Assembly (NCBI RefSeq): GCF_018474015.1
Contig: NZ_JAHCSG010000002.1
Coordinates: 248,001-312,000 of the forward strand
DNA from: Williamsia sp. CHRR-6
GTDB lineage: Bacteria; Actinomycetota; Actinomycetes; Mycobacteriales; Mycobacteriaceae
Direction of reading: 5' to 3'
Length of the DNA: 64,000 nt
The position numbers were made by a program, and so were the translations under genes. The notes below the pieces were generated by a model. The model worked only from the letters and a program-made list of their open reading frames with translations, was not told where the DNA came from and ran no database searches. Below, in pieces: positions 19,076-64,000 of the stretch (positions are counted from its first letter, which is position 1; the number at the start of each line of letters is the position of its first letter).

Positions 19076-21628
19076 ATGACGTTGCCTTTCGACCTCGAAC
19101 CCACTGTTGAACCGACCGCCCGCGACGGTGAATCCCTGACCGCCCGCGACGGTGAATCCCTGACCGCCCGCGACGGTGAATCCCTGACCGCCCGCGACGG
19201 TGAATCCCTGACCGCCCGCGGTCGTGAACTCCTCGACGGACTCAACCCCCAGCAACGAGCCGCCGTCATGCACTCCGGCGGTCCGCTGTTGATCGTGGCC
19301 GGTGCCGGGTCGGGTAAGACAGCGGTGCTCACCCGTCGTATCGCGTTCCTGCTCGCCGAGCGCGACGTGTCGCCTGGGGAGATCCTGGCGATCACCTTCA
19401 CCAACAAGGCCGCCGCGGAGATGCGCGAGCGGGTCATCGGCCTCGTCGGCCCGCGGGCATCGCGGATGTGGGTGTCGACCTTCCACTCCACCTGCGTGCG
19501 CATCCTGCGTGCCCAGGCCGCCCTCATCGCCAGCCGCAACTCCAACTTCTCCATCTACGACGCCGACGACTCGAAACGCTTGTTGGCCATGATCATCCGT
19601 GATCTCGACCTCGACCCCAAGAAGTTCAGCCCGCGTGGGGTGGGGGTACACATCTCCAACCTGAAGAACGAGCTGATCACCCCAGCGCAGGCCGCTGTGC
19701 AGGCCGCCGAGGGTGATGACGACACCGTCGTCACCCTCGCCGACATCTACACCCAGTACCAGCGTCGGCTGGCCGCAGCCAATGCCTTCGACTTCGACGA
19801 TCTGATCGGCGAGACCGTCACGCTGTTGCAGGCGCATCCGGAGGTGGCCGAGTACTACCGACGTCGGTTCCGCCACGTGATGGTCGACGAATACCAGGAC
19901 ACCAACCACGCCCAGTACGTGCTGGTGCGTGAGTTGGTGGGCACCGGTGAGGGCGCGGTCAGCCCGTCGGAACTGTGCGTGGTCGGCGACGCCGATCAGT
20001 CGATCTACGCGTTCCGGGGCGCCACCATCCGCAACATCGAAGAGTTCGAGCGGGACTTCCCCAACACCGAAACCGTACTGCTGGAACAGAATTACCGCTC
20101 CACCCAAACCATCCTGTCGGCCGCCAACGCGGTGATCGCGCGCAACGCCAACCGTCGTGAGAAGAAGTTGTGGACCGATTCCGGAGACGGTGACCTGATC
20201 GTCGGGTACGTGGCCGACAACGAGCACGACGAGGCGTCGTTCATCGCCGGCGAGATCGACGCACTCGCCGACACCGGCGAGTTCAACTACTCCGACGTGG
20301 CCGTCTTCTACCGCACCAACACCGGCTCGCGGGCGTTGGAAGACGTGTTCATCCGGCTCGGCATCGCCTACAAGGTGGTGGGTGGGGTGCGCTTCTACGA
20401 GCGAAAAGAGGTGCGTGACATCGTGGCCTACCTGCGGGTGGTGGCCAACCCCGACGACACCGTGAGCCTGCGCCGCATCGTCAACACCCCCAAGCGTGGT
20501 ATCGGCGACCGGGCGCAGGCGTGCGTGGCGGTGTACTCGGAGAACTCCGGGGTCAGCTTCTATCAGGCCCTCATCGATGCCGCCGACGGCGCGGTGCCGT
20601 TGCTCAACACCCGTGCGGTGAAACAGATCTCCGGTTTTGTCGAGCTGATCGAGGGGCTGCGCAACGATTTCCTGGTGGCGTTCGGTGCCGCCGACGGTCC
20701 CGATGCCGACACCGCCGCCGCCGACGCCGGGCAGGCCGCCGCCGACATCGGTGATCTGGTGGAGGCCATCGCATCTCGATCCGGCTACCGCGACGAGCTT
20801 GAGGGATCGTCGGACCCGCAGGATGGGGCTCGGCTGGACAATGTCAACGAATTGATCTCGGTGGCAAGGGAGTTCAGTGTCGAGGCCGCGTCGATCGATG
20901 AGGCCGACCGCCCCGATCCGGCCGACGGCGAACCCGAGCCCGGATCACTGGCCGCCTTCCTGGAGCGGGTGTCGCTGGTGGCCGACGCCGACCAGGTACC
21001 CGATTCCGATGCCGGCATGGTGACCATGATGACGCTGCACACCGCCAAGGGTCTGGAGTTCCCGGTGGTCTTCGTGACCGGCTGGGAGGACGGGCAGTTC
21101 CCTCACCTGCGGGCGTTGGGCGATCCGGCGGAGCTGAGCGAGGAGCGTCGGCTGGCCTACGTCGGCATCACCCGTGCGCGCAAGCGCCTCTACCTCACGC
21201 GTTCGATGGTGCGTTCGGCGTGGGGACAGCCGGTGTCCAACCCGGAATCGCGCTTCCTGCAGGAGATTCCACAGCACCTCATCGACTGGCGGCGCACCGA
21301 GCCGCGGCGGCGGGAGCGGTCGTTCGGCAGTTCCGGCGGGTTCTTCGGCGGCGGGTCGTACCGCTCGGACGATTCCGGTCCGGCACACCGTGGTGAGGCG
21401 TCATCGGGGATGCGGGGCCGCTCGTCGTACTCCAGCGATCCCACCCGTGGCCGCAACCGGCAGGTGTCGGTCGACGTCGGTGATCGGGTCAACCACGCCA
21501 AGTACGGGTTGGGCAAGGTGGTGGCCAAGGAGGGCTCGGGTGCCACCGAGCGGGTGACGTTCGACTTCGGCAGTGCCGGTCGGATCACGCTGATGTCGCT
21601 GGGTGGGCTTCCGGTCGACAAGCTCTAG
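19076..21628 (+). CDS. pcrA: ATP-dependent DNA helicase UvrD1/PcrA
   Basis: 850 residues. SF1A 3'-5' helicase in nucleotide excision and double-strand-break repair. Walker A GAGSGKT (Lys about 81), VDEYQDTN (motif II), GDADQSIYAFRGA (motif III), QNYRSTQ (IV), TLHTAKGLEF (V) and VGITRARKRLYL (VI) are all intact. After a disordered Gly/Ser/Arg linker, a C-terminal Tudor-like domain (VGDRVNHAKYGLGKVV) matches the UvrD1/PcrA module that contacts RNA polymerase or Ku. It corresponds to Rv0949. The N-terminus is unusual: residues 14-45 are four exact copies of TARDGESL before the normal start of the fold (LNPQQRAAV). Confidence 0.96.
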   Translation: MTLPFDLEPTVEPTARDGESLTARDGESLTARDGESLTARDGESLTARGRELLDGLNPQQRAAVMHSGGPLLIVAGAGSGKTAVLTRRIAFLLAERDVSPGEILAITFTNKAAAEMRERVIGLVGPRASRMWVSTFHSTCVRILRAQAALIASRNSNFSIYDADDSKRLLAMIIRDLDLDPKKFSPRGVGVHISNLKNELITPAQAAVQAAEGDDDTVVTLADIYTQYQRRLAAANAFDFDDLIGETVTLLQAHPEVAEYYRRRFRHVMVDEYQDTNHAQYVLVRELVGTGEGAVSPSELCVVGDADQSIYAFRGATIRNIEEFERDFPNTETVLLEQNYRSTQTILSAANAVIARNANRREKKLWTDSGDGDLIVGYVADNEHDEASFIAGEIDALADTGEFNYSDVAVFYRTNTGSRALEDVFIRLGIAYKVVGGVRFYERKEVRDIVAYLRVVANPDDTVSLRRIVNTPKRGIGDRAQACVAVYSENSGVSFYQALIDAADGAVPLLNTRAVKQISGFVELIEGLRNDFLVAFGAADGPDADTAAADAGQAAADIGDLVEAIASRSGYRDELEGSSDPQDGARLDNVNELISVAREFSVEAASIDEADRPDPADGEPEPGSLAAFLERVSLVADADQVPDSDAGMVTMMTLHTAKGLEFPVVFVTGWEDGQFPHLRALGDPAELSEERRLAYVGITRARKRLYLTRSMVRSAWGQPVSNPESRFLQEIPQHLIDWRRTEPRRRERSFGSSGGFFGGGSYRSDDSGPAHRGEASSGMRGRSSYSSDPTRGRNRQVSVDVGDRVNHAKYGLGKVVAKEGSGATERVTFDFGSAGRITLMSLGGLPVDKL
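19114..19209 (+). repeat. Tandem repeat, 4 x 24 bp, in frame in pcrA
   Basis: Four identical 24-base units each encode TARDGESL. A fifth, diverged unit (TARGRELL) leads into the helicase fold. Exact identity suggests recent expansion by slippage or unequal recombination; the phase keeps the frame open. Copy number could vary between strains. Confidence 0.95.
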
Positions 21629-23136: not shown

Positions 23137-24300
23137 ATGGATCTCTTCGAATACCAGGCGAAGGAACTCTTCGCCAAGCACCAGGTACCCACCTCGGCCG
23201 GACGTGTCACCGACACGGTCGCCGGGGCGAGCGCCATCGCCGAGGAAATCGGCAAGCCGGTGATGGTCAAGGCCCAGGTGAAGGTGGGCGGCCGCGGGAA
23301 GGCGGGTGGCGTCAAGTATTCGAAGGACGTCGCCGAGGCCACCGCCAACGCTGAGGCCATCCTGGGCCTCGACATCAAGGGCCACGTGGTCAAGAAGTTG
23401 TTGGTGGCCGAGGCCAGCGAGATCGCCGAGGAGTACTACATCTCCTTCCTGCTCGACCGCACCAACCGCACCTACCTGGCCATGTGCTCGGTCGAGGGTG
23501 GCGTGGAGATCGAGGTGACCGCCGAGGAGAACCCCGACGCGTTGGCCCGGATCCCGGTCGATGCGGTGACCGGTGTGGACCTCGCGTTCGCGCGTCACAT
23601 CGCTGAGGCAGGCAAGCTGCCCGCGGAGGTCCTCGACGCGGCCGCGGTGACCATCCAGAAGCTGTGGGAGGTGTTCATCTCCGAGGACGCACTGCTGGTC
23701 GAGGTGAACCCGCTGGTGCGCACGCCCGACGATCAGATCCTGGCGTTGGACGGCAAGGTGTCCCTGGACGCCAACGCCGATTTCCGTCAGCCCGGGCACG
23801 CAGAGTTCGAGGATCGTGACGCCACCGATCCCCTGGAGCTCAAGGCCAAGGAGAACGACCTCAACTACGTCAAGCTCGACGGCGAGGTGGGCATCATCGG
23901 CAACGGTGCGGGTCTGGTCATGTCGACCCTCGACGTGGTCGCCTACGCAGGCGAGAACCACGGTGGGGTCAAACCCGCCAACTTCCTCGACATCGGTGGT
24001 GGCGCCTCGGCTGAGGTGATGGCTGCCGGCCTCGACGTGATCCTGGGCGACAGCCAGGTCAAGAGCGTGTTCGTCAACGTCTTCGGTGGCATCACCGCGT
24101 GTGACGCGGTGGCCAACGGGATCGTAGGTGCGCTGAAGGTGCTGGGCGACAGTGCGACCAAGCCGCTGGTGGTGCGCCTGGACGGCAACAAGGTCGACGA
24201 GGGTCGGGCGATCCTCGCCGAGGCCGCGCACCCGCTGGTGACGCTGGCTAACACCATGGACGAAGGCGCCGACAAGGCCGCCGAACTGGCGAGCAAGTAA
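23137..24300 (+). CDS. sucC: Succinyl-CoA synthetase beta subunit (ADP-forming)
   Basis: 387 residues. TCA cycle: succinyl-CoA + ADP (or GDP) + Pi to succinate + CoA + ATP. The ATP-grasp domain begins [29 protein letters not shown] holds the nucleotide loop. LVEVNPLV and [14 protein letters not shown] carry the Mg ligands. FLDIGGGA and [14 protein letters not shown] form the C-terminal interface with SucD. It is 14 bases upstream of sucD; the operon corresponds to Rv0951-Rv0952. Confidence 0.97.
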
Positions 24301-24314
24301 AGGACTGCTGACTC

Positions 24315-25205
24315 ATGTCTATTTTTCTCAACAAGGACTCCAAGGTCATCGTCCAGGGCATCACCGGCGGTGAGGGCACCAAGCACACCGCTCTGATGCT
24401 CAAAGCCGGCACCCAGGTGGTCGGTGGTGTCAACGCCCGCAAGGCCGGGACCACCGTCTCGCATGACGGCGGCGTTCAGCTGCCGGTGTTCGGCACCGTG
24501 GCCGAGGCCATCGAGAAGACCGGCGCCGACGTGTCCATCGCGTTCGTGCCGCCGAAGTTCGCCAAGGACGCCATCATCGAGGCCATCGACGCCGAGATTC
24601 CGCTGCTGGTCGTCATCACCGAGGGAATCCCGGTACAGGACAGCGCGTACGCCTGGGCCTACAACAAGTCCAAGGGTGAGAAGACCCGGATCATCGGCCC
24701 CAACTGCCCGGGCATCATCACTCCCGGCGAGTCGCTGGTGGGCATCACCCCGGCCAACATCGCAGGCACCGGCCCGATCGGGCTGGTGTCCAAGTCGGGC
24801 ACGCTGACCTATCAGATGATGTACGAGCTGCGCGATATCGGTTTCTCGACCGCCATCGGCATCGGCGGCGACCCGGTCATCGGTACCACCCACATCGACG
24901 CCATCGCGGCGTTCGAGGCTGACCCGGCCACCAAGGTCATCGTGATGATCGGTGAGATCGGCGGCGACGCCGAGGAGCGTGCCGCCGACTACATCAAGGC
25001 CAACGTCTCCAAGCCGGTGGTCGGCTACGTCGCGGGGTTCACTGCGCCGGAGGGCAAGACGATGGGCCACGCCGGCGCCATCGTGTCCGGCAGCTCAGGC
25101 ACCGCGCAGGCCAAGAAGGATGCACTTGAAGCTGCGGGGGTGAAGGTGGGCAAGACCCCGTCGGAGACCGCAGCATTGGCCCGCGAGATCTACCAGAGCC
25201 TGTAG
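24315..25205 (+). CDS. sucD: Succinyl-CoA synthetase alpha subunit
   Basis: 296 residues. Partner of SucC; carries the CoA-binding Rossmann domain ([24 protein letters not shown]) and the phosphohistidine loop GHAGAIVSG, where the His is transiently phosphorylated. [12 protein letters not shown] and [10 protein letters not shown] are family blocks. It ends 19 bases before a strong hairpin that closes the operon. Confidence 0.97.
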
Positions 25206-25317: not shown

Positions 25318-26793
25318 TCAGTCCTCGGGGTGTGTCCGGGGACGACGGATCATGCGCTCGACGTTGCGCTCGAGCTCGGCGGTGACGATCGGTCGGCTCG
25401 GCATCGATGCGGGGGTGTCCTCGTCGGCCACCGGGATCTCGCCGCTGTCGGTGCGATCGGCCTGCGTCCACTCGTGTGCGCCCGCGCTGAGCACCGCGGT
25501 TGCGGCTGAGCTCGACGCGCTGGGCCGCGAGGATGTCGACGGCGTCGGTGACCGGCGCGGAACGAAGCGGCCGGACGCGGGGCGACCGTCCATCTCGGAG
25601 TCGAGATACAAAGTGTCCGACTCGGTTTCGGCTTCGGCCAGGGCAGTGTTGGGGTCCTTGTCGGCCGGGTCGGCGAGGCCGAATCGGGCGAGTGTGGCCT
25701 CGCGTCGAGCCACGGCGTCTGCGTTCATCTTCGCCTGGGCGACAGCCATCATCGTCGACGTGCCGTTGAGCATTCGACTGAGGTCCTTGGCCTCGCGCCA
25801 CCGTTTGCCCACCACCGAGGCGATGATCGCGAACGCCAGGTAGCAGCCCATCATCACCCAGCCCTTCCACATCGGCTGGCCGACGCCGTAGACGATCTGT
25901 TTGATCTGCTCGGTGATGCCGCCGCCGACGACGAACGGATGCAGGTCTTGGAAGAAGCCGGGCATCATCCACACCGGGTAGGCGGCCCCGGATGACGGAA
26001 TCGACAGGAATACGAAGATGGCCATGGCGGGCGCGGCTATGAAGCGACCAAAGAAGTAGGCCAGACCGTTCACCGTGAGCCCGACGGTGAAGACCCACGG
26101 AATGGAGATGCCGATCAGCTTCCAGACCTCGGCGCCGTGGAAGATCCCGAGGATCGGGCCGGCGATGATGATGGCGATCAGTGACGAGACCACGGCCATG
26201 CACGCGATGATGGCGACCCGCAGGCGGTGGCGCAGTCCGTTGCCGAACATGCCGACCATCATGGCCGAGATGTAGCCGCCCACACACCAGGTGAGCATCA
26301 GATACATCGAGGACATCCCGTAGGCGTCGTTCTTGGGCAGCGGTGCGAGGTCGGTGATCGCGTAGGGCTGCCCGGCGCGGTCGAACGCGGTCTGGAAGGT
26401 GAGTTTGAGCTGCCGGGCTGCCTGGTACTGGTGGCCGCTGGCGATGGTGATCTCGGCCTTGTCGCCCCGAGCAGTGGGGAGTTCGACAGCGGCGGCGGCG
26501 GAGCCATCGCGCACCTTGCCGACGGCTTCATCGGCGGTGGTCTCGAACTGGAAGTCGAAGGTTCCCGGCGACGCCTTGCTCAGTTGGGCCGTGAACTGCG
26601 ACGCCGCCGGAGAGTTGACAATCGTGACCGGCGCGTCTTGGAACTTCGGCGCGTGGAACGCCGCGAGGTACACCGACGCGAACATCGTGACGAACAGCAG
26701 CGGCATCCACATCTGCAGCGTGATGACCTGAAGGTTGCCAGGCAACTGGCTGAACTTCGCACGCCAGCGAGCAAGGGTTGACGTCTGTTCCAT
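25318..26793 (-). CDS. DUF3533 / YhgE-Pip-like membrane protein
   Basis: 491 residues. One N-terminal span (LLFVTMFASVYLAAFHAP) is followed by an extracytoplasmic domain of about 150 residues (VTIVNSP, AVELPTARGDKAEITIASGHQ). Five or so further spans form an ABC-2-permease-like block (YLMLTWCVGGYISAMMVGM onward). A charged, disordered cytoplasmic tail of about 120 residues ends the protein. The layout matches YhgE/Pip and DUF3533 proteins, some of which act in export or as phage receptors; no ATPase is adjacent. The start is the ATG after GAGGTG. It is downstream of the heliorhodopsin gene on the same strand, 299 bases away. Confidence 0.72.
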   Translation of the reverse strand: MEQTSTLARWRAKFSQLPGNLQVITLQMWMPLLFVTMFASVYLAAFHAPKFQDAPVTIVNSPAASQFTAQLSKASPGTFDFQFETTADEAVGKVRDGSAAAAVELPTARGDKAEITIASGHQYQAARQLKLTFQTAFDRAGQPYAITDLAPLPKNDAYGMSSMYLMLTWCVGGYISAMMVGMFGNGLRHRLRVAIIACMAVVSSLIAIIIAGPILGIFHGAEVWKLIGISIPWVFTVGLTVNGLAYFFGRFIAAPAMAIFVFLSIPSSGAAYPVWMMPGFFQDLHPFVVGGGITEQIKQIVYGVGQPMWKGWVMMGCYLAFAIIASVVGKRWREAKDLSRMLNGTSTMMAVAQAKMNADAVARREATLARFGLADPADKDPNTALAEAETESDTLYLDSEMDGRPASGRFVPRRSPTPSTSSRPSASSSAATAVLSAGAHEWTQADRTDSGEIPVADEDTPASMPSRPIVTAELERNVERMIRRPRTHPED

Positions 26794-27092: not shown

Positions 27093-27881
27093 TCAGCCCG
27101 CGAGCGAACCACCGAAGATCTGCCACGCCAGCAACGATTTCGAGACCAGGCTGAGCACGAGATAGGTCTTCTCCCCGAAGGCGTAACTGCGCCACGGGCC
27201 GATCTCGCGGTACTGCAACCACTGGTTGACTGCGAAGGTGGAAAAGAAGATCAGCAGTGACACGAAGATGCCGATGACGAACCCGGGCACACCGCTGCCG
27301 GCGCCGACGAAGTTCACCACGATGACGATCCACGGCACGGCACCGGCGATGGTCCCGAACCAGAAGGGCAGCATCGTGGTGCGATCGCGACCGGGCGGGT
27401 TCGCGCGTTCCTGAAGCCAACCGAACAGGATCATCGCGACGTTCGCGCCGAACACGGCGATCACCGCGTCGATGTTGGTGACGCCGAAGTAGAAGCCGAT
27501 CATCACGATCATGATCGAGGCGCTCAGCGAGTACTCGATCCAGCGGAACCGGTTGATCCCGCGGCGTAGATCGTTGTCGTAGACGCTGCGACCCACGGTC
27601 GCGGTGACGAGGTGGTCGACGGCGGCCAGCGCGAGGAACACCGCGATGGCCGGACCGATGGCCACATCGACCAGACGCTGCGGCGCAGGTGTTGCGGTAC
27701 CGGGCGGTCCGACCGGGAACGTGGAGGTGACGGTGATGGCGAAACCGTTGGCCAGCAGCAGCACGGCCGCTGCTTGGGCGGCGTGCACAACGGTCAACCC
27801 GATGTTCCAGCGCCGCACACCGGCCAGTGCGGCGTCGGTGACGCCGGTGGCGACCGGGGCGGGTCCCGCAGATGACGGCAT
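27093..27881 (-). CDS. Heliorhodopsin
   Basis: 262 residues, seven predicted spans, the normal size of heliorhodopsins (HeR), light-sensing retinal proteins with inverted topology (N-terminus inside). All family blocks are present: WIEYSLSASIMIV with the counterion Glu116, FGANVAMILFGWLQE, LPFWFGTIAGAVPWI, VPGFVIGI and YLVLSLVSKSLLAWQIF with the retinal-linking Lys248. His33 and His90 match the two internal histidines of the reference protein 48C12. This is not a type 1 pump: no DTD/DTE-type motif. The ATG is preceded only by a weak ribosome site. No carotenoid or retinal synthesis gene is in the window, so retinal must come from elsewhere. The signalling partner is unknown. Confidence 0.95.
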   Translation of the reverse strand: MPSSAGPAPVATGVTDAALAGVRRWNIGLTVVHAAQAAAVLLLANGFAITVTSTFPVGPPGTATPAPQRLVDVAIGPAIAVFLALAAVDHLVTATVGRSVYDNDLRRGINRFRWIEYSLSASIMIVMIGFYFGVTNIDAVIAVFGANVAMILFGWLQERANPPGRDRTTMLPFWFGTIAGAVPWIVIVVNFVGAGSGVPGFVIGIFVSLLIFFSTFAVNQWLQYREIGPWRSYAFGEKTYLVLSLVSKSLLAWQIFGGSLAG

Positions 27882-28357
27882 GACCGCGACGCTACGGCAC
27901 ACCGCCCAGCCATCCTCTGCTGGGACCGACGCCGGAACCGCCCCTGACACCCCGAGATCCGACACCCCGGCGGTACTGGGCGGTTTGCCTGACCGCCCAC
28001 CGACCGAGGGCGCCCCTGCCGCGTGCACCGGCAGAAAGGTCACCGGGTCGCAACCGGCTATGCCGGGGGCCATTGCGGTACTACTACGCGGTGCTGCAGG
28101 GTCCAGACGCATCGGGTCAGTACCCGATCATGGCGTCGAGCAACGACTGCAACCCGGCCTGCGCCGCCGGTACCATCACCTCGAAGATATTGCGCTGGAA
28201 CGGAAGTGGCTACGTCGGCTGACGTGTCGGGGTGCGTTGTCTTTGCGTGGGCAGAGTTGTCTTAGGCATCGACAGGCTTTTCTCGTGTCACCGCTCGATC
28301 ACCTGGACCCACCGAGACACCGGGCAGGTGTTCACCACCCATCCGGTGCGATAGGGC
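27882..28357. other. Non-coding gap upstream of heliorhodopsin
   Basis: 476 bases between the IOR stop and the HeR start. It holds the HeR promoter region and a perfect dyad at 27977-27999. On the minus strand near 28100-28200 a short frame reads RNIFEVMVPAAQAGLQSLL... to a stop, which looks protein-like and may be the tail of a lost gene. It has no start and no recognised family. Otherwise nothing was found. Confidence 0.5.
27977..27999. other. Perfect hairpin TGGGCGGT-N7-ACCGCCCA
   Basis: 8-base stem, 7-base loop, about 100 bases upstream of the HeR start. It could be a terminator for transcription from the IOR side or an operator/leader structure for HeR; the sequence alone does not decide. 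Confidence 0.45.
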
Positions 28358-31300
28358 TCAGACCCCCAACGCATCTCGCTTCCGTGACAGTTCGTCACGA
28401 TAGCGCTCGACGTTCGCCATCTTGATCGACTCGTACCCCCGGACCATGTCAGGCAGCTCAGCCAGTGCCACCGCGGCCTCGAGGCGGTCACGATCGATGG
28501 CCCCGGACGCCAGCGCCTCGATCAGCCCGTCCACCACGCCGCGGTATTCGACGATCAGGTCGCGTTCGGTGCGACGCACCTGCGCTCGACCGAAGGGGTC
28601 GAACCGGGTGCCCCGCAACCTCTTCGCCCGCGCCAGGCCCACGAGCGCCGGGCGCGCCCAGCCGCCCAGTGACAGCTTGTTGCGCATGCCCATCGCCCGC
28701 AGGGTCGGCGGATGCAGCCGCACCGCGACCTTCGCGTCGTCGCCGAACTGCTCGGCCACCTGCGCTGAGAACGCGGGATCGCACGTCAGGCGAGCTACCT
28801 CGTACTCGTCTTTGTAGGCCATCAGCTTGAACAGATTACGGGCCACAGCCAAACTCAGACTCGATGTGCCACATACTCTCTCGGCGTCAAGGACCCGCGC
28901 GACGTCATCGACGTAGCGGCGTGCGTATCGCTGATCCTGGTAGGCGATCAGCTCGTCGGTGCGCACCAGGAGGGCATCGCGCAGCTCCTCAGGCAGCCCG
29001 CCGAGCCGATCGACCATGCTGACCGCGACGGCCGATGGCTCGCAGGTGGTGTCGGCCGGGTGAAGCGCGGCGATCGCAGCCCGCAACGACTCCGGGTCGG
29101 CCACCACCTGACGTCCGCGTCGGAACGCCTGGATGTTGGCGTCCACGGCCACCCCGTTGACCTCGATGGCCTGTTCGATGGCCGACACCGAGATGGGCAT
29201 CGACCCCGTCTGCACCGCGGCACCCACCATCATCATGTTGGCCGACTGCTCGTCACCGAACAGTGCGGTGCTCAGCTGCGCCGGATCCAGATACACTGCG
29301 CGCGAACTGTTTTCGTCGATCCGCTGATGGATGGCGGTGGCGGCGGGAAATCCCACCGAGGTGTCGACCACCATCGCCCCGGTCGGGATCTCGCTGGTCG
29401 AGACCACCGCGACGGTGCGGTCGGCGGTGGCCACCTTCAGGTGCACCGGGTCGGTGGCCACCAGCGGATCGCAGGCCAGGTACAGGTCGCAGTCGCCAGT
29501 GGCGATCTTGGCGGCCTGCTCCACCCGGTGCCCGGTCGGGCCGGCGGTGACCTTCAGATCGCTGACCACCGCCCCGCCCTTCTGAGCCAGGCCGGTCATG
29601 TCGACGGTGCGGGCGTCGTGACCGTCGATGACTGCGGCGGTGGCCAGGATCTGATTGACCGTCACCACACCGGTGCCGCCGATGCCGGTGACACGTAGCC
29701 GGAAGCCGTTGGGCAACAGAGCCGTCGATCGTGGGGCCGGTATCGCGTCGGCGGCCAGATCGGCCACCACCGCACGAGCGGTGCCGGTCCGATCAGGCGT
29801 CTGACCGGGTGTGACGGTGACGAACGACGGGCAGTCGCCGTTGAGGCACGACAGATCCACATTGCAGGAACTCTGGTCGATGCGGGTCTTGCGGCCGAAC
29901 TCGGTGGCCACCGGATGCACCGACAGGCAGCTCGACTTCTCGCCGCAGTCGCCGCAGCCCTCGCAGATGCGTTCGTTGATCATCACGCGCTGGGTGGCCA
30001 CCGGGTAGTCGCCCCGCTTGCGCTTACGGCGCTTCTCGGCGGCACAGTGCTGGTCGTGGATGAGGACGGTGACGCCGGCGACCGCGGCCAGCTCACGTTG
30101 CACCGCGAGGGTGTCGTCACGGTGGCGAACCTGCACACCGCTGGGAAGACCAAGGGCGGCAGTTCGTTTCGGATCGTCGCTGGTGATCACGATGCGCGCC
30201 ACCCCTTCGGCCTGCAGCAGCGCGGCCAGTTCGGGTAGGCCGCGTGCACCCACCGCGTCTTGTCCGCCGGTCATGGCGACGGTGCCGTTGTAGAGCAGTT
30301 TGTAGGTCACGTTCGATCCGGCGGCCACCGACGCGCGCAGCGCCAGCGAGCCCGAATGCATGAACGTCCCGTCGCCGAGGTTCTGCACGAAGTGTTTCTC
30401 GTCGACGAAGGGCGCCATCCCCAGCCACTGGGTGCCCTCGCCGCCCATCTGGGTGACTCCGGTGATGTCGCCGACCTGCGCTGGGTCCATCAGCAACACC
30501 ATTGCATGGCAACCGATCCCGGCGCCGACCAGGGTGTCGGGGGAGACCTTGGTGGCGCTGTTGTGTGGGCATCCGGAGCAGAAGAACGGGCTGCGCACGG
30601 CCAGCGGGAGATCGATACGGACCCGACGGCGATTGCGTCGATCGAGCCAGGTGCGGGCCGCGTCCATCCCGGGATGTCGTGAGAGTCGTTGCGCCAGGCC
30701 CACGGTCACCGCGTCTACGTCCAGCTCACCGAATCGGGAGAACAACGTGGAGCCGTCCTCGTGTTCTTTGCCCACGATCCGGCCGATGGTTCCCGCCCGG
30801 GCCCGGTCGAACAGGATCTCGCGCATCATCGTCTCGATGAAGTCGCGCTTCTCCTCCACGACAATCACCTCGTCGAGACCGTCGACGAACTGATCGAGGA
30901 TGGAGCGTTCGAAGGGGTAGACCATGCCCAGCTTGAGGATTCGGATTCCCAGCGCCCTGAGGTCGGCATCGGAGATGCCGATCAGCCGCAGCCCCTCGCG
31001 AACATCGAGGTAGGTCTTGCCCGCGGCGACGATGCCGATGCGGTCGTCGCCGCTGCGCACCACGATGCGGTTGAGGCCGTTGAGCCGCGCGTATTCCAAT
31101 GCCCGCGGCTTGCGTATGGTCAGCTGATTCTGTTCGAGCTCCATCAGGTTGGCGCCCAACAGTTTTCCGCTCGGGATGTGTGGGCTGGTTCCGAGGTCGC
31201 CGTAGACCGGTGAGATCCGATCGGGGGCGAGGACCGCGGTGGAGGCGCCGTCGGCGACGTGCGCGGAGATCTTCAACGCCGTCCACAGTCCCGACACCCG

Positions 31301-31927
31301 TGACATCAGCGCCGCGTGTACGCCGAAGTCGAGGATGTCCTGGGACTCGGCCGGGTACAGCGTGGGCAGATACAGGTCGGCCAGCGACATCTCCGATGCA
31401 CACGGAACCGTCGAGCTCTTGGCGCCCGGGTCGTCGCCGACGAGCGCCACCGCGCCGCCGCGATGATGTGTGCCGATGAGGTTGGCGTGGCGCAGGGCGT
31501 CGGTGGCGCGGTCGAGTCCGGGTGCCTTGCCGTACCAGTAACCGACCACACCGTCGCGCGGATGGCCGTCGGCGTCGGGGGCCAGGTGGGCCACGCGGGC
31601 CGCCACCTGCGAACCCATGATGGCGGTGGCGGCGAGTTCCTCGTTGAGGGCGGGGCGGTGCACCACGTCGAGACCGTCGAGGTGGCGTCGCCGTCGAGCG
31701 ATCTCGAGGTCGTAACCGGCCAGCGGTGACCCCTCGTACCCGGATATGAACGACCCGGTGCGCAACCCGGCGGCCCGATCGAGGCGGGCGCGGTCGGCGA
31801 CCATGCGGACCAGCGCGGCGATGCCCGACAGATAGATCGAGCCGTCGGTACGGGTGTAGCGGTCGTCGAGTGAGAACGGCTCCGAACTCTGACGATTCGA
31901 GGCGGGTCGATCGGGGGCGAGGGTCAT
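28358..31927 (-). CDS. Fused indolepyruvate:ferredoxin oxidoreductase
   Basis: 1189 residues. It oxidatively decarboxylates aryl-2-oxoacids (from Trp, Phe, Tyr) to aryl-acyl-CoA, reducing ferredoxin. Order: pyrimidine-binding/PFOR domains; TPP domain with FCSGCPHNSAT and GAGIGCHAM (about 470-520); a ferredoxin-like segment with two Cys groups (CEGCGDCGEKSSC and CNVDLSCLNGDC, about 650-690); the gamma (IorB) domain (VTGIGGTGVVTVNQIL, GLAQKGGAVVSDL); and a DUF6537-type C-terminal domain. Fusion of IorA and IorB is common in actinobacteria and proteobacteria. The start is the ATG after AGGTGA. It is divergent from the fadD-aacS set. Confidence 0.9.
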   Translation of the reverse strand: MTLAPDRPASNRQSSEPFSLDDRYTRTDGSIYLSGIAALVRMVADRARLDRAAGLRTGSFISGYEGSPLAGYDLEIARRRRHLDGLDVVHRPALNEELAATAIMGSQVAARVAHLAPDADGHPRDGVVGYWYGKAPGLDRATDALRHANLIGTHHRGGAVALVGDDPGAKSSTVPCASEMSLADLYLPTLYPAESQDILDFGVHAALMSRVSGLWTALKISAHVADGASTAVLAPDRISPVYGDLGTSPHIPSGKLLGANLMELEQNQLTIRKPRALEYARLNGLNRIVVRSGDDRIGIVAAGKTYLDVREGLRLIGISDADLRALGIRILKLGMVYPFERSILDQFVDGLDEVIVVEEKRDFIETMMREILFDRARAGTIGRIVGKEHEDGSTLFSRFGELDVDAVTVGLAQRLSRHPGMDAARTWLDRRNRRRVRIDLPLAVRSPFFCSGCPHNSATKVSPDTLVGAGIGCHAMVLLMDPAQVGDITGVTQMGGEGTQWLGMAPFVDEKHFVQNLGDGTFMHSGSLALRASVAAGSNVTYKLLYNGTVAMTGGQDAVGARGLPELAALLQAEGVARIVITSDDPKRTAALGLPSGVQVRHRDDTLAVQRELAAVAGVTVLIHDQHCAAEKRRKRKRGDYPVATQRVMINERICEGCGDCGEKSSCLSVHPVATEFGRKTRIDQSSCNVDLSCLNGDCPSFVTVTPGQTPDRTGTARAVVADLAADAIPAPRSTALLPNGFRLRVTGIGGTGVVTVNQILATAAVIDGHDARTVDMTGLAQKGGAVVSDLKVTAGPTGHRVEQAAKIATGDCDLYLACDPLVATDPVHLKVATADRTVAVVSTSEIPTGAMVVDTSVGFPAATAIHQRIDENSSRAVYLDPAQLSTALFGDEQSANMMMVGAAVQTGSMPISVSAIEQAIEVNGVAVDANIQAFRRGRQVVADPESLRAAIAALHPADTTCEPSAVAVSMVDRLGGLPEELRDALLVRTDELIAYQDQRYARRYVDDVARVLDAERVCGTSSLSLAVARNLFKLMAYKDEYEVARLTCDPAFSAQVAEQFGDDAKVAVRLHPPTLRAMGMRNKLSLGGWARPALVGLARAKRLRGTRFDPFGRAQVRRTERDLIVEYRGVVDGLIEALASGAIDRDRLEAAVALAELPDMVRGYESIKMANVERYRDELSRKRDALGV

Positions 31928-32046
31928 GGGGTCACCTGGACTTCTCTGGGTTCGGGCCCCCGGGGGTGGTGGGTGGCGCGAAACGATGTGGATTTGTGTC
32001 CTCAACCCTAGCGTCTGCTGAGACGTGGAGCACATCTGCCGCGCAC

Positions 32047-37213: not shown

Positions 37214-38446
37214 ATGACGTATCAGTCCGGCGGACCTTCCTACTCGCCCGGTGGCGAGGGCGGGTCGGAGCAGGCGCAACAGGGCTATGGCTCCTACCCG
37301 CAGCAGGGTCAGGCCGGCTACGGCCAGTACGGATCGGGCCAGCACGGCTACGCGCAGCCAGGCCAGGGTCAGCAGGCCGCCCCGCAGCAGGGGTACGGCC
37401 AGCAGGGGTACGGCGAGCAGGGCTACGGTCAGCAGCAGGCCGCTCAGGGCTATGGTCAGCAGGGCTACGGCCAGCAGGCCGCCCCCCAGCAGGGGTACGG
37501 CCAGCAGTACGGCGGCTACCCGCAGCAGGGGTATGGCCAGCAGGGCTACGGGCAGCCCGCACCCGCGCCCAAGCCGCCTCGCCAGGGCCTACCTGCCGAG
37601 ATCACCACCTATCTCACCTACGGCGTCGGCGCACTCGGCCTGATCAACCTGTTCCTCGGTTTCGTCACCGGGTGGAAGTACGACGGCGCTGCGGAATACG
37701 GTGGCGCCGACGGCCAATCGGTCTTCAACACGAGCGGCAGCTCGGCGGTGGTGGTCCTGGCTGCGGCCGGTCTCATCGCGCTCGCGACATTGCTGCCCAA
37801 GTTCACCTCGTCCACCTACAGCCCGATCGTCGCCGGTCTCTCGGTCACGGGTCTGCTGGTGTCGGCCTTCCTGCTGGTGACGGTGCCCGGTGCGGCCAGC
37901 GCGGGGATCGGCCTCATCCTTGTGCTGGTATTCGCCCTCATCCAGACTGCGGTCGCGATCACCTGGCTGCTGGTCGACGGCGGTGTCCTCAAGACTGCGC
38001 CGGCCGACGGCGCGACTGCGACGCCGACCGCAGACTCCACTTCTGCGGCCGCTACCGCGACCGCCTACCCGAGCACCACCGATGCTGCCGCTGCGCAGAA
38101 CCAGTCAGCGGCCTACGGCTACGGACAGGCCGGCCAGCAGGCTGATGCCGCCGGTTCGGCCGCCGCCTACGGGCAGGGGTACGGCTCGTCGGCGTCCTAC
38201 GGATCGGCGGAGAGCTACCAGCAGCACGCCGGCTACCAGCAGTCCGGATATCAGACACCGGCCACCCCGACCCCGGCCGCCGCTCCCACACCGTCCACCC
38301 CGACCCCGACCCCGGCCGCACCCAGCGCGTCGGCGGAGTCGGCCGGTGCCGCAGGGCTGCCCACCGCAGGCGAGCAGTCCTCAGCCCCCTCGGCGTACGA
38401 CGCCACCACGGCGTTCCCCAGCCAGGAGAAGAAGTCCGGACAGTAG
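37214..38446 (+). CDS. DUF5336 membrane protein with Gln/Gly/Tyr-rich N-terminus (Rv0954-like)
   Basis: 410 residues. Residues 22-113 are low-complexity repeats of QQGYG type; four membrane spans follow (about 130-260); then an Ala/Pro/Thr-rich tail of about 140 residues. This layout and the place before DUF6350-purN-purH match mycobacterial Rv0954, the 34-kDa antigen family, which associates with the growing pole or septum. The flanks are probably disordered and cytoplasmic and could drive multivalent contacts. The ATG follows GAGGAGA. Function is not established by sequence. Confidence 0.85.
37277..37552 (+). repeat. Degenerate QQGYG-coding repeats
   Basis: The DNA encodes many copies of GYGQQ/QQGYG with 15- to 18-base periodicity (CAGCAGGGGTACGGC-like units). 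Imprecise tandem repeats like these can vary in length between strains. Confidence 0.8.
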
Positions 38447-42868: not shown

Positions 42869-56601
<13,733 letters not shown>

Positions 56602-56605
<4 letters not shown>

Positions 56606-60369: not shown

Positions 60370-63300
60370 TCATTTGGCGGGTCGGGGTGCGCACTCGAAG
60401 GTGGTGTCGGGTCGGATCGGGGCGGGTGCGGCGGCACAGATGCGCGCTGCGACGGCGGCCGGATCGGTGGACCAGGTGCGTTGCCATCCGTCGGGACCGG
60501 TGACCATCACCCCGGCGTCGGCTGCTGCGGCCGCCCTGATCCCTCCAGCCGCCGCCGATGCGTCGCTGATCGTCGGTGCGGGCGCGCCCACCGGTTCCAG
60601 CCGGCCCTTGTCGGTCCAGCGCCGCAGGCCACCGTCGGCGCCGGCTGCGATCACGTCGGCGCCGCTGACCGCGACCGAGGTGACGGGGGTGCCCAGGCGC
60701 ACCGACCGTGCCGGGGTGGTGCCCGAGGCCACCTCGTACTCACCGATCGACCCGGCGGCGTCTCCGATCACCAGTCGGCCCGCCCCGAAACTCATCGAGG
60801 TCACCGGTGCACCCACCCGGATGCCGGTGGGTGCCTGCTGTAGTCCGGTCGGGGTGACCCCGGCCAGGGTGACGGTGCCGTCGTTGCCTGCGACCGCCAG
60901 CGACTTCGAATCGGGTGCGAACGCCACCGCGGCGACCTGGGTGCTGTCGCCGCGCAGTGTGCCCACCGGCAGCAGACCTGACGCCGACACCTGCCACACC
61001 CGGATGGAGGTGGTGCCGTCGATTCCGGTGGCCAGCAGAGCGCTCGACGGACTGAACACCAGCGGGTTGCTCTGCTGCGGGCCCACGTGCAGGGCCGCAC
61101 CCGCCTCCACCGGACGGGCGAGGTCACGCGCATCCCACAGTTGCACCTGACGTCGTGCGTCGACGGTGACCAGCCAGTTGCCGTCGGGGCTCATCGCGGC
61201 CCCGTTGAGTGGGTCCGTCGGCGTCATCTGGCTCACCGTGGTCGGTGCCAGCGGGTTGGCGGTGTCGATGATGTGCAGCGGGCCACCGAGGAAACCGGTG
61301 GCGCAGGCCGTGCGGGCGGGCGAACAGGTGGGCGTGGTGGCCGAGCCGTAGCCGCCGGTGACCAGACCTGAGGGCAGGGTCCAGCGAACGGCCGGACCCT
61401 CGCCGGTGGTGATCAGCGCGTCCTCGCCCTGGAAGACCGTCGTGGACAGGCCGGTGATGCCGGTGGCGATCGGCGCGGTCAGTCGGTAACGCGCCGCCGG
61501 GCGGGTGATGTCGTAGACCGAGATGGTTCCCGACGCCGAGACCACCGCCAGGCGGGTACCCGACGGTGAGAACACCGCGGTGGCAGGACCTTTGCCGTCG
61601 GGATCGATGGGTTCACCGATGCGCTGGGGATTCGTGGGATCGGCCACCGACCACAGTTGCACGGCACCGGATTCGTAGCTGGTGACCGCGAACTGGGCGT
61701 TGGGCGAGTAGTCCAGCGCCTCGGGGGTGGTGTTCTCCTTGCCGCTGCTCTGCAGCCGCGCCGGGTTGTCCGGGTCTGATGTGTCCACCAGGACCAGTGG
61801 TCGGTCGGAGCCGCCGAGTGCCAATTGTGAAGCGGCGGGGTTGAACTCGACGAACTGAGCGGGGGTGGTGACGGCATCGAGCACGCTGCGTTGCGTCGGG
61901 CTGCTGGGATCGGACAGGTCGTAGAGCCGCACCGTCCCGGTGCTCTCGGCCACCGCGAGCAGCCGCTGGGTGGTGCCGAAGGTGATGGCGTCGGTGCGAA
62001 CCCCCGGACCGGTGGCGGCGATGGTGGACAGCTGTCGGACTGCGGCGAGGTCGCTGAGGTCCCACACGGTGACGGTGCCGTCGGGGCCGGTGCTGGCCAG
62101 AATGGTGCCGCTCGGGTTGAGGGTGATGTCGGTGACGCTGCCGCCGTGCGAATCGGGCAGTGTGGCAACAGTTGTCAGCGCCGGATTCTCTAGGATTCGG
62201 ATGCTGCCGTCGCGGTCGCCGAGTGCGATGCGGCCGGTGGTGCGCGCGGTGGCCAGCGCGACGGCCGGGGTGGCCCCCAGATCGGTGCGTAGGGCGACGT
62301 TCTGGGTGTTGAGCAACGCCTGGCGCAGCTGCGGGTCGTCGGAGCGTTTCTGGTACGCCGACAGCGCCAGCTGGGCGGCGGCGGTGCTGTCGGTGCGGGC
62401 CAGCGCGGCGATCTCGGAGACCGTCGCGTCCGAGTTGCCCTGCCCTCCTGAGGACTTGGAGTCGCCACCACCACCGATCAGAGTGGTGAGCACCAGTGCG
62501 ATCACCACCACCAAGGCCACCGCGCCGCCGATCAGCGCGCTGATCCGGGCGCGTTTGCGGCCGATGATGTGGCCACGCGACTGGGCCAGGAAGTCGCGGG
62601 TGTCGCCGCTGAGCATTCGCGGGTCGGGGACCGTGCGGTCCACCTCGTCGAGTCGCACCTGTGAGTAGAGCGCAGAGTTGCGGCGTCCGCCGCGCTTCCA
62701 GGCCTGCGCATCGGCGTCCAGCGCTGCGAACAGGCCGTCGGTGGTCTGGACATCGGTCACCCACTGCTGCAACCGGTTCCACAAGCGAGCCAGCTGCGGG
62801 TGGCGCAAGCTCACCTCGTCGTCGGCCGACACCGTCAGCAGGCCCGCGGCCACCAGCTGGCCCACCAGTCGGCGGGTCGCATCTGCGGTGGGGGAGCCCT
62901 CGAGGTGGTCGATGTGTCGGGTGACGGCGAACATGGTGCCGTCGGCACCGCGCTCGGTCAGGCGCAGGGCCAGCGCTCGGGCGGCCGGCTGTTCCTCGGG
63001 AGTCAGTGTGGCCCAGGCGCGCTCGGCTTCTCGGTCCACTGCCCCGGCGATCGGCAGGATGCGGGCCACGTCTTCGGCGGTGATCTCGGAGGTGTGGTTG
63101 TCGCGCCACAGCTCGTGCAGGGCCGTCGAGAGCGCCATCGTCGGAGGCAGCGAGGGGGGCAGCGAACTGAGACCACCGAGCACGGCGAACACCGCGGTGG
63201 ACTGCACCCCCACCCCGCGGGCGCGGGCCGGCTGCACGATCACCTCGGTGGTCTCCTCGACCGTCATCGGCAGCAAGCGCACCGTGCGGGAGCTGATGGC

Positions 63301-63969
63301 CTCGGCCAGGTCGGCCTCGGCGCCGGCCGCGGTCAGCAGCGAGTCGTCGACGGCGATGACCACGCAACATCGGGGGTCGGAGGCGAGTCGCCGGATGGTC
63401 TTGAGGAAACGGTTGCGGGTCACCGCGTCGACCCGCACGAACAGGTCGACGATGTCGTCGACGATCAGCAGGGTGGCCGCGCCCTCAGGCACTCTCGACA
63501 GCGCTGGTTCCACCCAGGCCGACGGGTTCTCGGGGGTGGCCGGTGGGGCCGGCAACGCGAACACCGTCGCCAGATGGCCCATGGGGTCGGCGCCCGGCGA
63601 CATGGACCGCACCTGGCAACTGAGGGTGGTCGCGTCGCGGCGCAGTCCGTGCCGGGCAGCGTCCATCCGCAAACCTGCGGCCAGCAGCGAGGTCTTGCCG
63701 GTGCCGGTGCCGCCGATGAGCACGATGATGCCGCCGCCGGGTACTGCTGCGGTGAGCAACGCCCGTCGCATCGCCGTGCGCCCGGCGAACAGTCCCGCGT
63801 CGTCGGGGCCGTAGGGCCGCAGACCGGGGTAGGGGTTGGTGCCCCGCAGCTGGGCGCGCTCAGTGGGTCCCACCTGCGCAGAGTCTCCGGTCGTCCCGCC
63901 CGTGTTCGAACCACCGTCGGCCCGTCCGGGCGTGGTGTCGCCGGCACCGGGGGAGGGGATGTGGTCCAT
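60370..63969 (-). CDS. Membrane-anchored STAND NTPase with WD40-type beta-propeller
   Basis: 1199 residues. After a disordered start, NPYPGLRPYGPDDAGLFAGR (45-64) is the entry motif of nSTAND1 ATPases. Walker A GGTGTGKT (Lys92) and Walker B LLIVDD (Asp171-172) follow, then helical STAND regions to about 470. One span (about 475-499) precedes a coiled linker. From about 545 to the end a WD40-like propeller of some 12-14 blades is visible (repeats such as GPDGTVTVWDLSD, LAVVSASGTISVYDI). STAND proteins act as ATP-switch signalling hubs; the propeller would be outside the cell. ATG 63969 is chosen (GAAGGAG 10 bases before); GTG 63978 is possible. It lies 45 bases from the convergent NRPS operon. 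Confidence 0.88.
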   Translation of the reverse strand: MDHIPSPGAGDTTPGRADGGSNTGGTTGDSAQVGPTERAQLRGTNPYPGLRPYGPDDAGLFAGRTAMRRALLTAAVPGGGIIVLIGGTGTGKTSLLAAGLRMDAARHGLRRDATTLSCQVRSMSPGADPMGHLATVFALPAPPATPENPSAWVEPALSRVPEGAATLLIVDDIVDLFVRVDAVTRNRFLKTIRRLASDPRCCVVIAVDDSLLTAAGAEADLAEAISSRTVRLLPMTVEETTEVIVQPARARGVGVQSTAVFAVLGGLSSLPPSLPPTMALSTALHELWRDNHTSEITAEDVARILPIAGAVDREAERAWATLTPEEQPAARALALRLTERGADGTMFAVTRHIDHLEGSPTADATRRLVGQLVAAGLLTVSADDEVSLRHPQLARLWNRLQQWVTDVQTTDGLFAALDADAQAWKRGGRRNSALYSQVRLDEVDRTVPDPRMLSGDTRDFLAQSRGHIIGRKRARISALIGGAVALVVVIALVLTTLIGGGGDSKSSGGQGNSDATVSEIAALARTDSTAAAQLALSAYQKRSDDPQLRQALLNTQNVALRTDLGATPAVALATARTTGRIALGDRDGSIRILENPALTTVATLPDSHGGSVTDITLNPSGTILASTGPDGTVTVWDLSDLAAVRQLSTIAATGPGVRTDAITFGTTQRLLAVAESTGTVRLYDLSDPSSPTQRSVLDAVTTPAQFVEFNPAASQLALGGSDRPLVLVDTSDPDNPARLQSSGKENTTPEALDYSPNAQFAVTSYESGAVQLWSVADPTNPQRIGEPIDPDGKGPATAVFSPSGTRLAVVSASGTISVYDITRPAARYRLTAPIATGITGLSTTVFQGEDALITTGEGPAVRWTLPSGLVTGGYGSATTPTCSPARTACATGFLGGPLHIIDTANPLAPTTVSQMTPTDPLNGAAMSPDGNWLVTVDARRQVQLWDARDLARPVEAGAALHVGPQQSNPLVFSPSSALLATGIDGTTSIRVWQVSASGLLPVGTLRGDSTQVAAVAFAPDSKSLAVAGNDGTVTLAGVTPTGLQQAPTGIRVGAPVTSMSFGAGRLVIGDAAGSIGEYEVASGTTPARSVRLGTPVTSVAVSGADVIAAGADGGLRRWTDKGRLEPVGAPAPTISDASAAAGGIRAAAAADAGVMVTGPDGWQRTWSTDPAAVAARICAAAPAPIRPDTTFECAPRPAK

Positions 63970-64000
63970 GTGGAGCACGCTCCTTCGGGTCGGGCGCAGA

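Follow-up and report, generated by a model that had tools for sequence, protein, structure and literature searches.

The closest described counterpart of the protein considered here is 48C12, a heliorhodopsin (HeR) from an uncultured actinobacterium (6su3, 6su4, 6uh3). The two have in common seven helices, an A-B hairpin, a Lys/Glu/His-His/Ser core and 116 of 237 aligned residues, and differ in genomic setting and at the positions of two 48C12 residues, Ser76 and Ala240. Nearer in sequence are the HeRs of W. herbipolensis and four other members of Williamsia (79-87% identical), and those of the Geodermatophilaceae genera Modestobacter, Blastococcus and Geodermatophilus (70-74% identical). The Geodermatophilaceae are not known to be mycolate bacteria. 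A Williamsia HeR has been printed before, that of W. herbipolensis being named '208HeR' in a supporting-figure legend of PMC9529153. Published HeRs regulate a glutamine synthetase (PMC9529153) and an ABC transporter (PMC11109279), and the pairings of HeR with glutamine synthetase in IMCC26103 and with OmrDE in Ornithinimicrobium cerasi, where the protein is a light-dependent regulator of a neighbor's product, provide the model adopted here, although the HeR of our host had neither of these partner genes next to it.

A restriction of HeRs to monoderms has been argued (PMC8612252), and few other general clues point to what these proteins do. In that study a genome counted as diderm when it had 10 or more of 27 curated markers, which had been taken from studies of diderm Firmicutes, and contigs were assigned by 'known monoderm phyla'; the words mycobacteri, mycolic and corynebacteri are absent from its text. 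Mycolate bacteria are not expected to carry such markers and would presumably score as monoderm. The rule has been built upon in PMC9726877, which proposes that HeRs may transport compounds unable to cross the diderm outer membrane. The nearest approach to the question of the mycomembrane concerned aquatic low-GC actinobacteria of the class Acidimicrobiia, which had no mycolic-acid genes and in which an outer membrane was judged unlikely (PMC7771536). The bearing of the mycomembrane on the rule was not found in passages of PMC8612252, PMC9385722, PMC9601134, PMC9726877, PMC10238734, PMC11519504, PMC12422013, PMC7771536 and PMC9529153.

The locus lies in a 64-kb stretch of DNA, which was analyzed as a whole and is called the window. 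The gene itself is an ordinary member of its family, and what is new may lie in the conclusion drawn from its host.

Identity, fold and retinal pocket

27093-27881, minus strand: heliorhodopsin (HeR), 262 aa, identified by PF18761, NF038020, predicted fold and key residues

The first-pass annotation had called this protein a heliorhodopsin, and both family profiles and the modeled fold agree. PF18761 matched with an E-value of 6.4e-99 (330.6 bits, cut-off 26.7) and the NCBIfam profile NF038020 'HeR' with 282 bits (cut-off 100), the final 240 residues of the frame covering the heliorhodopsin family end to end; the type-1 rhodopsin family PF01036 gave no match to the ORF at E 0.001. The nearest solved chains were heliorhodopsins (9ljj, 6su3 and 6uh3, E about 2e-65). 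The 23-row AlphaFold model (pLDDT 88.4) displayed seven long helices and a two-strand hairpin in the A-B loop, and its best PDB match was 6su3, the 48C12 HeR (TM 0.88); the 50 matches listed also included type-1 rhodopsins, at TM 0.51-0.66. Homology implies an inverted topology for the Williamsia protein, with its N-terminus predicted to lie in the cytoplasm. The minus-strand frame is open from 27093 to 28112 at most, and an ATG at 27881 gives the 262-aa form, but the start is uncertain because start sites vary among relatives. By eye, no clear ribosome-binding site was seen upstream of 27881, and there was no match to a sigma-70-type promoter near the gene. The plus strand of 27093-27881 is interrupted by internal stops.

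Residues of the retinal pocket were examined by mapping to 48C12 and in an alignment of 89 rows, consisting of the HeR, 80 loci from the main relative search and eight further loci, with duplicate copies of the same records dropped. Since the main search retained the top 80 out of 533 confirmed stretches, these rows represent close relatives and not the whole family. Lys248, Glu116, His33 and His90 correspond to Lys241, Glu107, His23 and His80 of 48C12, so that the retinal lysine, the counterion and the two inner histidines are retained, as had been noted at first pass. The helix 7 motif SxxxK (Ser244-Lys248) and the glutamate counterion of helix 3 (Glu116) are both present. Lys248, Glu116, Ser244 and His90 occur in every one of the 89 aligned HeRs, and His33 in 88, with a gap in the other. 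Fourteen of the 15 residues of the 48C12 proton/hydrogen-bond network, as listed in PMC9726877, are identical (Asn26, His33, Gln36, His90, Tyr101, Arg113, Glu116, Tyr117, Ser120, Glu158, Glu237, Ser244, Lys248 and Trp253), and the sole exception, Ala86 in place of 48C12 Ser76, is alanine in 88 of the 89 rows.

A peculiarity of the host protein is Ser247, immediately before the retinal lysine, where 48C12 (Ala240), the five other Williamsia HeRs and indeed all of the other 88 rows have alanine. When this alanine was mutated to serine, the absorption of both 48C12 and an Ornithinimicrobium HeR was blue-shifted by about 5 nm, and serine occurs there naturally in a Thermococcus HeR (PMC7807009); on these grounds a small blue shift (about 5 nm) is predicted. 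Purifying selection was evident among the six Williamsia HeRs, with dN/dS values of 0.07-0.24 in all 15 pairs. The gene encodes a real and probably functional heliorhodopsin, a further member of a known family.

A conserved site in Williamsia

The HeR gene had been placed, at first pass, in an insert between sucD and the DUF5336 gene, and profile annotation gave the same arrangement:

23137-25205, plus strand: sucC and sucD, forming one edge of the insert (PF08442, PF02629, PF00549)
25318-26793, minus strand: ABC-2/YhgE-Pip-like membrane protein, next downstream of HeR (PF12698, 6e-16)
28358-32035, minus strand: indolepyruvate ferredoxin oxidoreductase family protein (IOR), upstream of HeR (NF009589, 1535 bits, cut-off 816)
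37214-38446, plus strand: DUF5336 gene, the other edge of the insert (PF17270, 3.9e-20)

The full order is pcrA, an M23 peptidase gene, sucC and sucD, followed by the insert (ABC-2-like protein, HeR, IOR, two AMP-binding synthetase genes and an acyl-CoA dehydrogenase gene) and then by DUF5336, a DUF6350 gene, purN and purH. Presumably, the insert genes, from the ABC-2-like gene to that of the acyl-CoA dehydrogenase, are missing between sucD and DUF5336 in M. tuberculosis.

HeR was detected with PF18761 in six of eight Williamsia genomes, and in all six it lies between the IOR and ABC-2-like genes, within the sucD-DUF5336 interval (some of the compared loci end short of DUF5336). IOR holds the same position in all eight loci. 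A TetR-carboxylesterase gene pair is variable at the HeR site, being present in three of the six HeR-bearing genomes. The two genomes lacking HeR have the order IOR-TetR-esterase-ABC2 beside sucD; in that stretch no match to HeR reached an E-value below 0.026, and PF18761 had no match genome-wide. An unrooted tree built from IOR, ABC2 and sucD recovered the two as sister genomes (83/87) and joined them to one that has HeR (100/99). A single loss of HeR therefore suffices to explain its absences in the genus.

The ABC-2-like protein had a single NCBIfam match, to TIGR03062 and below the cut-off, and its AlphaFold model was too poor to be usable (pLDDT 47). Searches with 25318-26790, one residue short of the gene, recovered homologues at 51-55% identity in the seven other Williamsia genomes and matches of 24-30% identity in 11 of 12 other genomes.

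Among the loci compared, none of the genes flanking the host HeR was seen next to a HeR from another mycolate genus. Four Rhodococcus-type HeR loci (L112, L113 and L116, in genomes G180, G241 and G318, and L115, the second copy of G200) have a common neighborhood of their own, with lipid-type genes that include an M50B peptidase gene (4/4), a fatty-acid desaturase gene (3/4) and an acyltransferase gene. If overlapping frames antisense to HeR are disregarded, no neighbor linked L110, L114, L117 or L118 to any other locus at the chosen threshold. The Geodermatophilaceae HeRs also have other neighbors (the Modestobacter copy L011, for example, adjoins a gene for an ANTAR/GAF regulator), and 20 selected neighbors of HeRs elsewhere belonged to mixed families, six of them to none. 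As neighbors differ among genera, gene order names no general partner for HeR.

Distribution and phylogeny

The PF18761 survey that the first-pass annotation had proposed returned 13 positive genomes, all above the family cut-off, out of 401 sampled from the GTDB family, and these fall into five genus groups. The sampled family is taken here to be the mycolate lineage. In a quick tree of the 89 aligned HeRs, Williamsia together with G018 was placed next to the Geodermatophilaceae, the nearest clade, with moderate support (82-86), and a separate Rhodococcus-type clade was recovered. The tree separates the HeR rows of the mycolate family, but a single clade for them was not rejected by the AU test (p 0.42, whether 14 or 13 rows were used).

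Three minor observations came from the same survey. A genome of a related genus (G362) has a partial PF18761 match (L119; profile positions 67-174, 20.7 bits against a cut-off of 26.7) in a 276-aa open frame, and this sub-threshold match was left out of the tree. Rhodococcus sp. AW25M09 (G200) carries two HeRs, L110 and L115, on different branches. A HeR titled Bifidobacterium breve, from a metagenome-assembled genome (L026), groups with unnamed Actinomycetota and Acidimicrobiaceae bins and is probably mislabelled.

Retinal supply

An earlier remark that no retinal synthesis gene is nearby holds for the 64-kb window, in which none was found, but not for the genome, whose single PF15461 match lies on another contig. 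This gene, blh (G000:C4:344625-345413), scored 126 bits with TIGR03753 (cut-off 95), and it is divergent from a type-1 rhodopsin gene on contig 4, the genome's single PF01036 match, whose product has a DTE motif (by eye) and DxxxK. A crtI gene (TIGR02734, 371 bits, cut-off 238) is accompanied within 2 kb by a gene of the phytoene-synthase family (PF00494, 229 bits) that reached no NCBIfam equivalog cut-off. A search of the same genome for a lycopene cyclase and a Blh-type dioxygenase, suggested at first pass, succeeded for the dioxygenase, whereas the cyclase is represented by a candidate (PF05834, 168.7 bits) that stayed below the TIGR01790 cut-off (180 against 209.5 bits, scanned without ends). 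Because PF05834 also recognizes FAD enzymes of other kinds (it matched 10 of 14 controls, nine of them over the cut-off), the strongest match alone was counted. A PF18916-type lycopene cyclase and an RPE65-type oxygenase (PF03055) as a retinal source were ruled out, the host genome containing neither. From blh, crtI, the phytoene-synthase-family gene and the lycopene-cyclase candidate, a complete retinal route in the host is judged probable, not proved, and retinal is probably available to the HeR.

Across the 401 genomes of the family sample, blh occurred in 10, HeR in 13 and both in six (Fisher p 6e-8, uncorrected for relatedness). PF01036 was searched in 20 genomes (those with HeR or blh, the HeR-less Williamsia, and G362), and a type-1 rhodopsin occurred in precisely those ten genomes that have blh; in nine of them no more than about 2 kb separates the two genes, and in the tenth they are on separate contigs. 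Thus blh accompanies the pump-type rhodopsin, and HeR would take its retinal from the same supply.

Among the 13 HeR genomes, blh occurs in six, an RPE65-type oxygenase alone in three, and neither gene in four. The last group consists of W. deligens, W. herbipolensis, Rhodococcus AW25M09 and G318, in which neither PF15461 nor the RPE65-type family had a match; the two Williamsia species differ in this from the host. A 9-row Blh profile built for this study and run on 10 genomes likewise found nothing in these four, and recovered the host's own gene and a chance-level match (E 0.05) in G003. Retinal auxotrophy in the presence of rhodopsin genes has been described for aquatic Actinomycetota (PMC12422013).

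In the Blh of G007 (L121), a HeR-bearing Williamsia that also has an RPE65-type gene, the second histidine of the WHxxRH pair is replaced by glutamine; this histidine is presumably an iron ligand.

Proposed function and alternatives

The interpretation considered likely is that the HeR is an inner-membrane, retinal-binding light sensor or regulator, fed by the cell's own retinal route, and not a pump. In Williamsia the protein would reside in the inner membrane and would bind retinal at Lys248, with Glu116 as the counterion. The retinal would be provided by a putative pathway of phytoene synthase, CrtI, lycopene cyclase and Blh, which would primarily serve the DTE-type, proton-pump-like rhodopsin encoded on another contig. 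Light would then drive a slow photocycle, in which the Schiff-base proton would pass by way of Glu116 to His90/His33 without transport, and a partner protein would sense the resulting change of shape, making the HeR a light sensor or regulator rather than a pump. The ABC-2-like neighbor is a candidate for such a partner. Several facts count against this interpretation: the host's neighbors are not shared by HeRs of the other mycolate genera compared, the ABC-2 gene persists in genomes that lack HeR, 48C12 Ser76 is replaced by Ala86, blh adjoins the type-1 rhodopsin gene and not HeR, and the lycopene-cyclase candidate and the phytoene-synthase-family gene fell short of their NCBIfam cut-offs.

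A narrower proposal, that the HeR controls the neighboring ABC-2/YhgE-like protein by direct contact and light, in the manner of the Ornithinimicrobium HeR and its OmrDE exporter, is improbable. It has a precedent (PMC11109279), and in five of the six HeR-bearing Williamsia the ABC-2 gene is next downstream on the same strand, at a distance (from called starts) of 42-107 bp in four, with about 300 bp for the host; in the sixth a TetR-esterase pair intervenes. However, the ABC-2 gene is retained at the same site in both HeR-less genomes; in the loci compared from other mycolate genera, Geodermatophilaceae and Nocardioides, HeR did not have it as a neighbor; and its product, with the poor model mentioned above, is not a typical ABC exporter. 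Proton transport by the HeR, like that of the viral V2HeR3, is very improbable: transport has been reported for the viral protein (PMC9448325), but the cell already possesses a DTE-type rhodopsin for pumping and its HeR groups with those of actinobacteria in a tree whose rows are prokaryotic relatives only.

Two further alternatives question whether the gene serves the host at all, or even belongs to it. It could be a silent or chromophore-poor passenger, derived from Geodermatophilaceae-like bacteria and drifting, as its patchiness in the genus (6/8), the four of 13 HeR genomes with neither Blh nor RPE65-type oxygenase and the tree position beside Geodermatophilaceae (82-86) might indicate. 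This is quite improbable given the low dN/dS (0.07-0.24), the retained key residues, the conserved site, the sufficiency of one loss to explain the absences, and the blh and crtI genes of the host. Contamination by a non-mycolate organism was rejected and has next to no probability. The identity of 70-74% to copies from Modestobacter, Blastococcus, Geodermatophilus and some Nocardioides might be cited in its favor, but the contig is at least 508 kb long in a genome rated as 0% contaminated, the neighboring sucD shares 93-96% identity with those of the seven other Williamsia loci, and the occurrence of HeR at the same place in six Williamsia genomes is decisive against it.

Heliorhodopsins and the mycomembrane

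The host (G000), whose contig C2 contains the window at 248001-312000 and whose genome of 4.0 Mb is rated 99.96% complete, is a Williamsia, a mycolic-acid genus, and falls in the same genus group as records named Williamsia deligens (G001), W. herbipolensis (G002), W. serinedens (G005) and uncultured Williamsia (G007). According to PMC7084869, Williamsia mycolic acids are about C30-C60 in length, and members of the order possess an outer membrane that serves as a permeability barrier; its make-up in Rhodococcus and Williamsia is there called 'not well documented'. Genes for MspA-type porins (PF09203) numbered four in the host and occurred in all eight genomes of the genus and in 17 of the 20 searched, compared with none of 14 controls. 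They were present in 11 of the 13 HeR genomes of the family, the exceptions being G018 and G076; such absence is uninformative, because Corynebacterium glutamicum, a mycolate control, also lacks MspA. The genus, the published mycolates and the porins together uphold the first-pass placement of the host among mycolate bacteria.

The first-pass annotation had also proposed that a HeR in such a host bears on the rule that HeRs belong to organisms without an outer membrane. That it does bear on the rule stands, but the rule needs rewording and is not overturned by one oddity; the data suggest that it concerns Gram-negative-type diderms and not outer membranes in general. On balance, we lean to the view that HeRs work behind an outer mycomembrane and that some, such as that of W. 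deligens, are kept under selection without a known retinal-forming enzyme. If so, the confinement to monoderms is not a consequence of having or lacking an outer membrane, and the idea that HeRs move compounds blocked by that membrane, put forward in PMC9726877, would lose its main support. Retention without a known retinal-forming enzyme would mean, in turn, that retinal crosses the mycomembrane or comes from an unrecognized enzyme. Williamsia, with its outer mycomembrane, offers species with and without HeR, the same site filled or empty, and genomes with and without blh, and so makes this clue to HeR function testable by ordinary genetics.

Other features of the window

Elsewhere in the window, a non-ribosomal peptide synthetase of 4578 aa is encoded on the plus strand (42869-56605), containing four condensation, adenylation and carrier domains together with a thioesterase, and an nSTAND1 NTPase with WD40 propellers on the minus strand (60370-63978). 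The N-terminal coding part of pcrA contains a perfect 24-bp tandem repeat of 4.5 copies (19114-19220).
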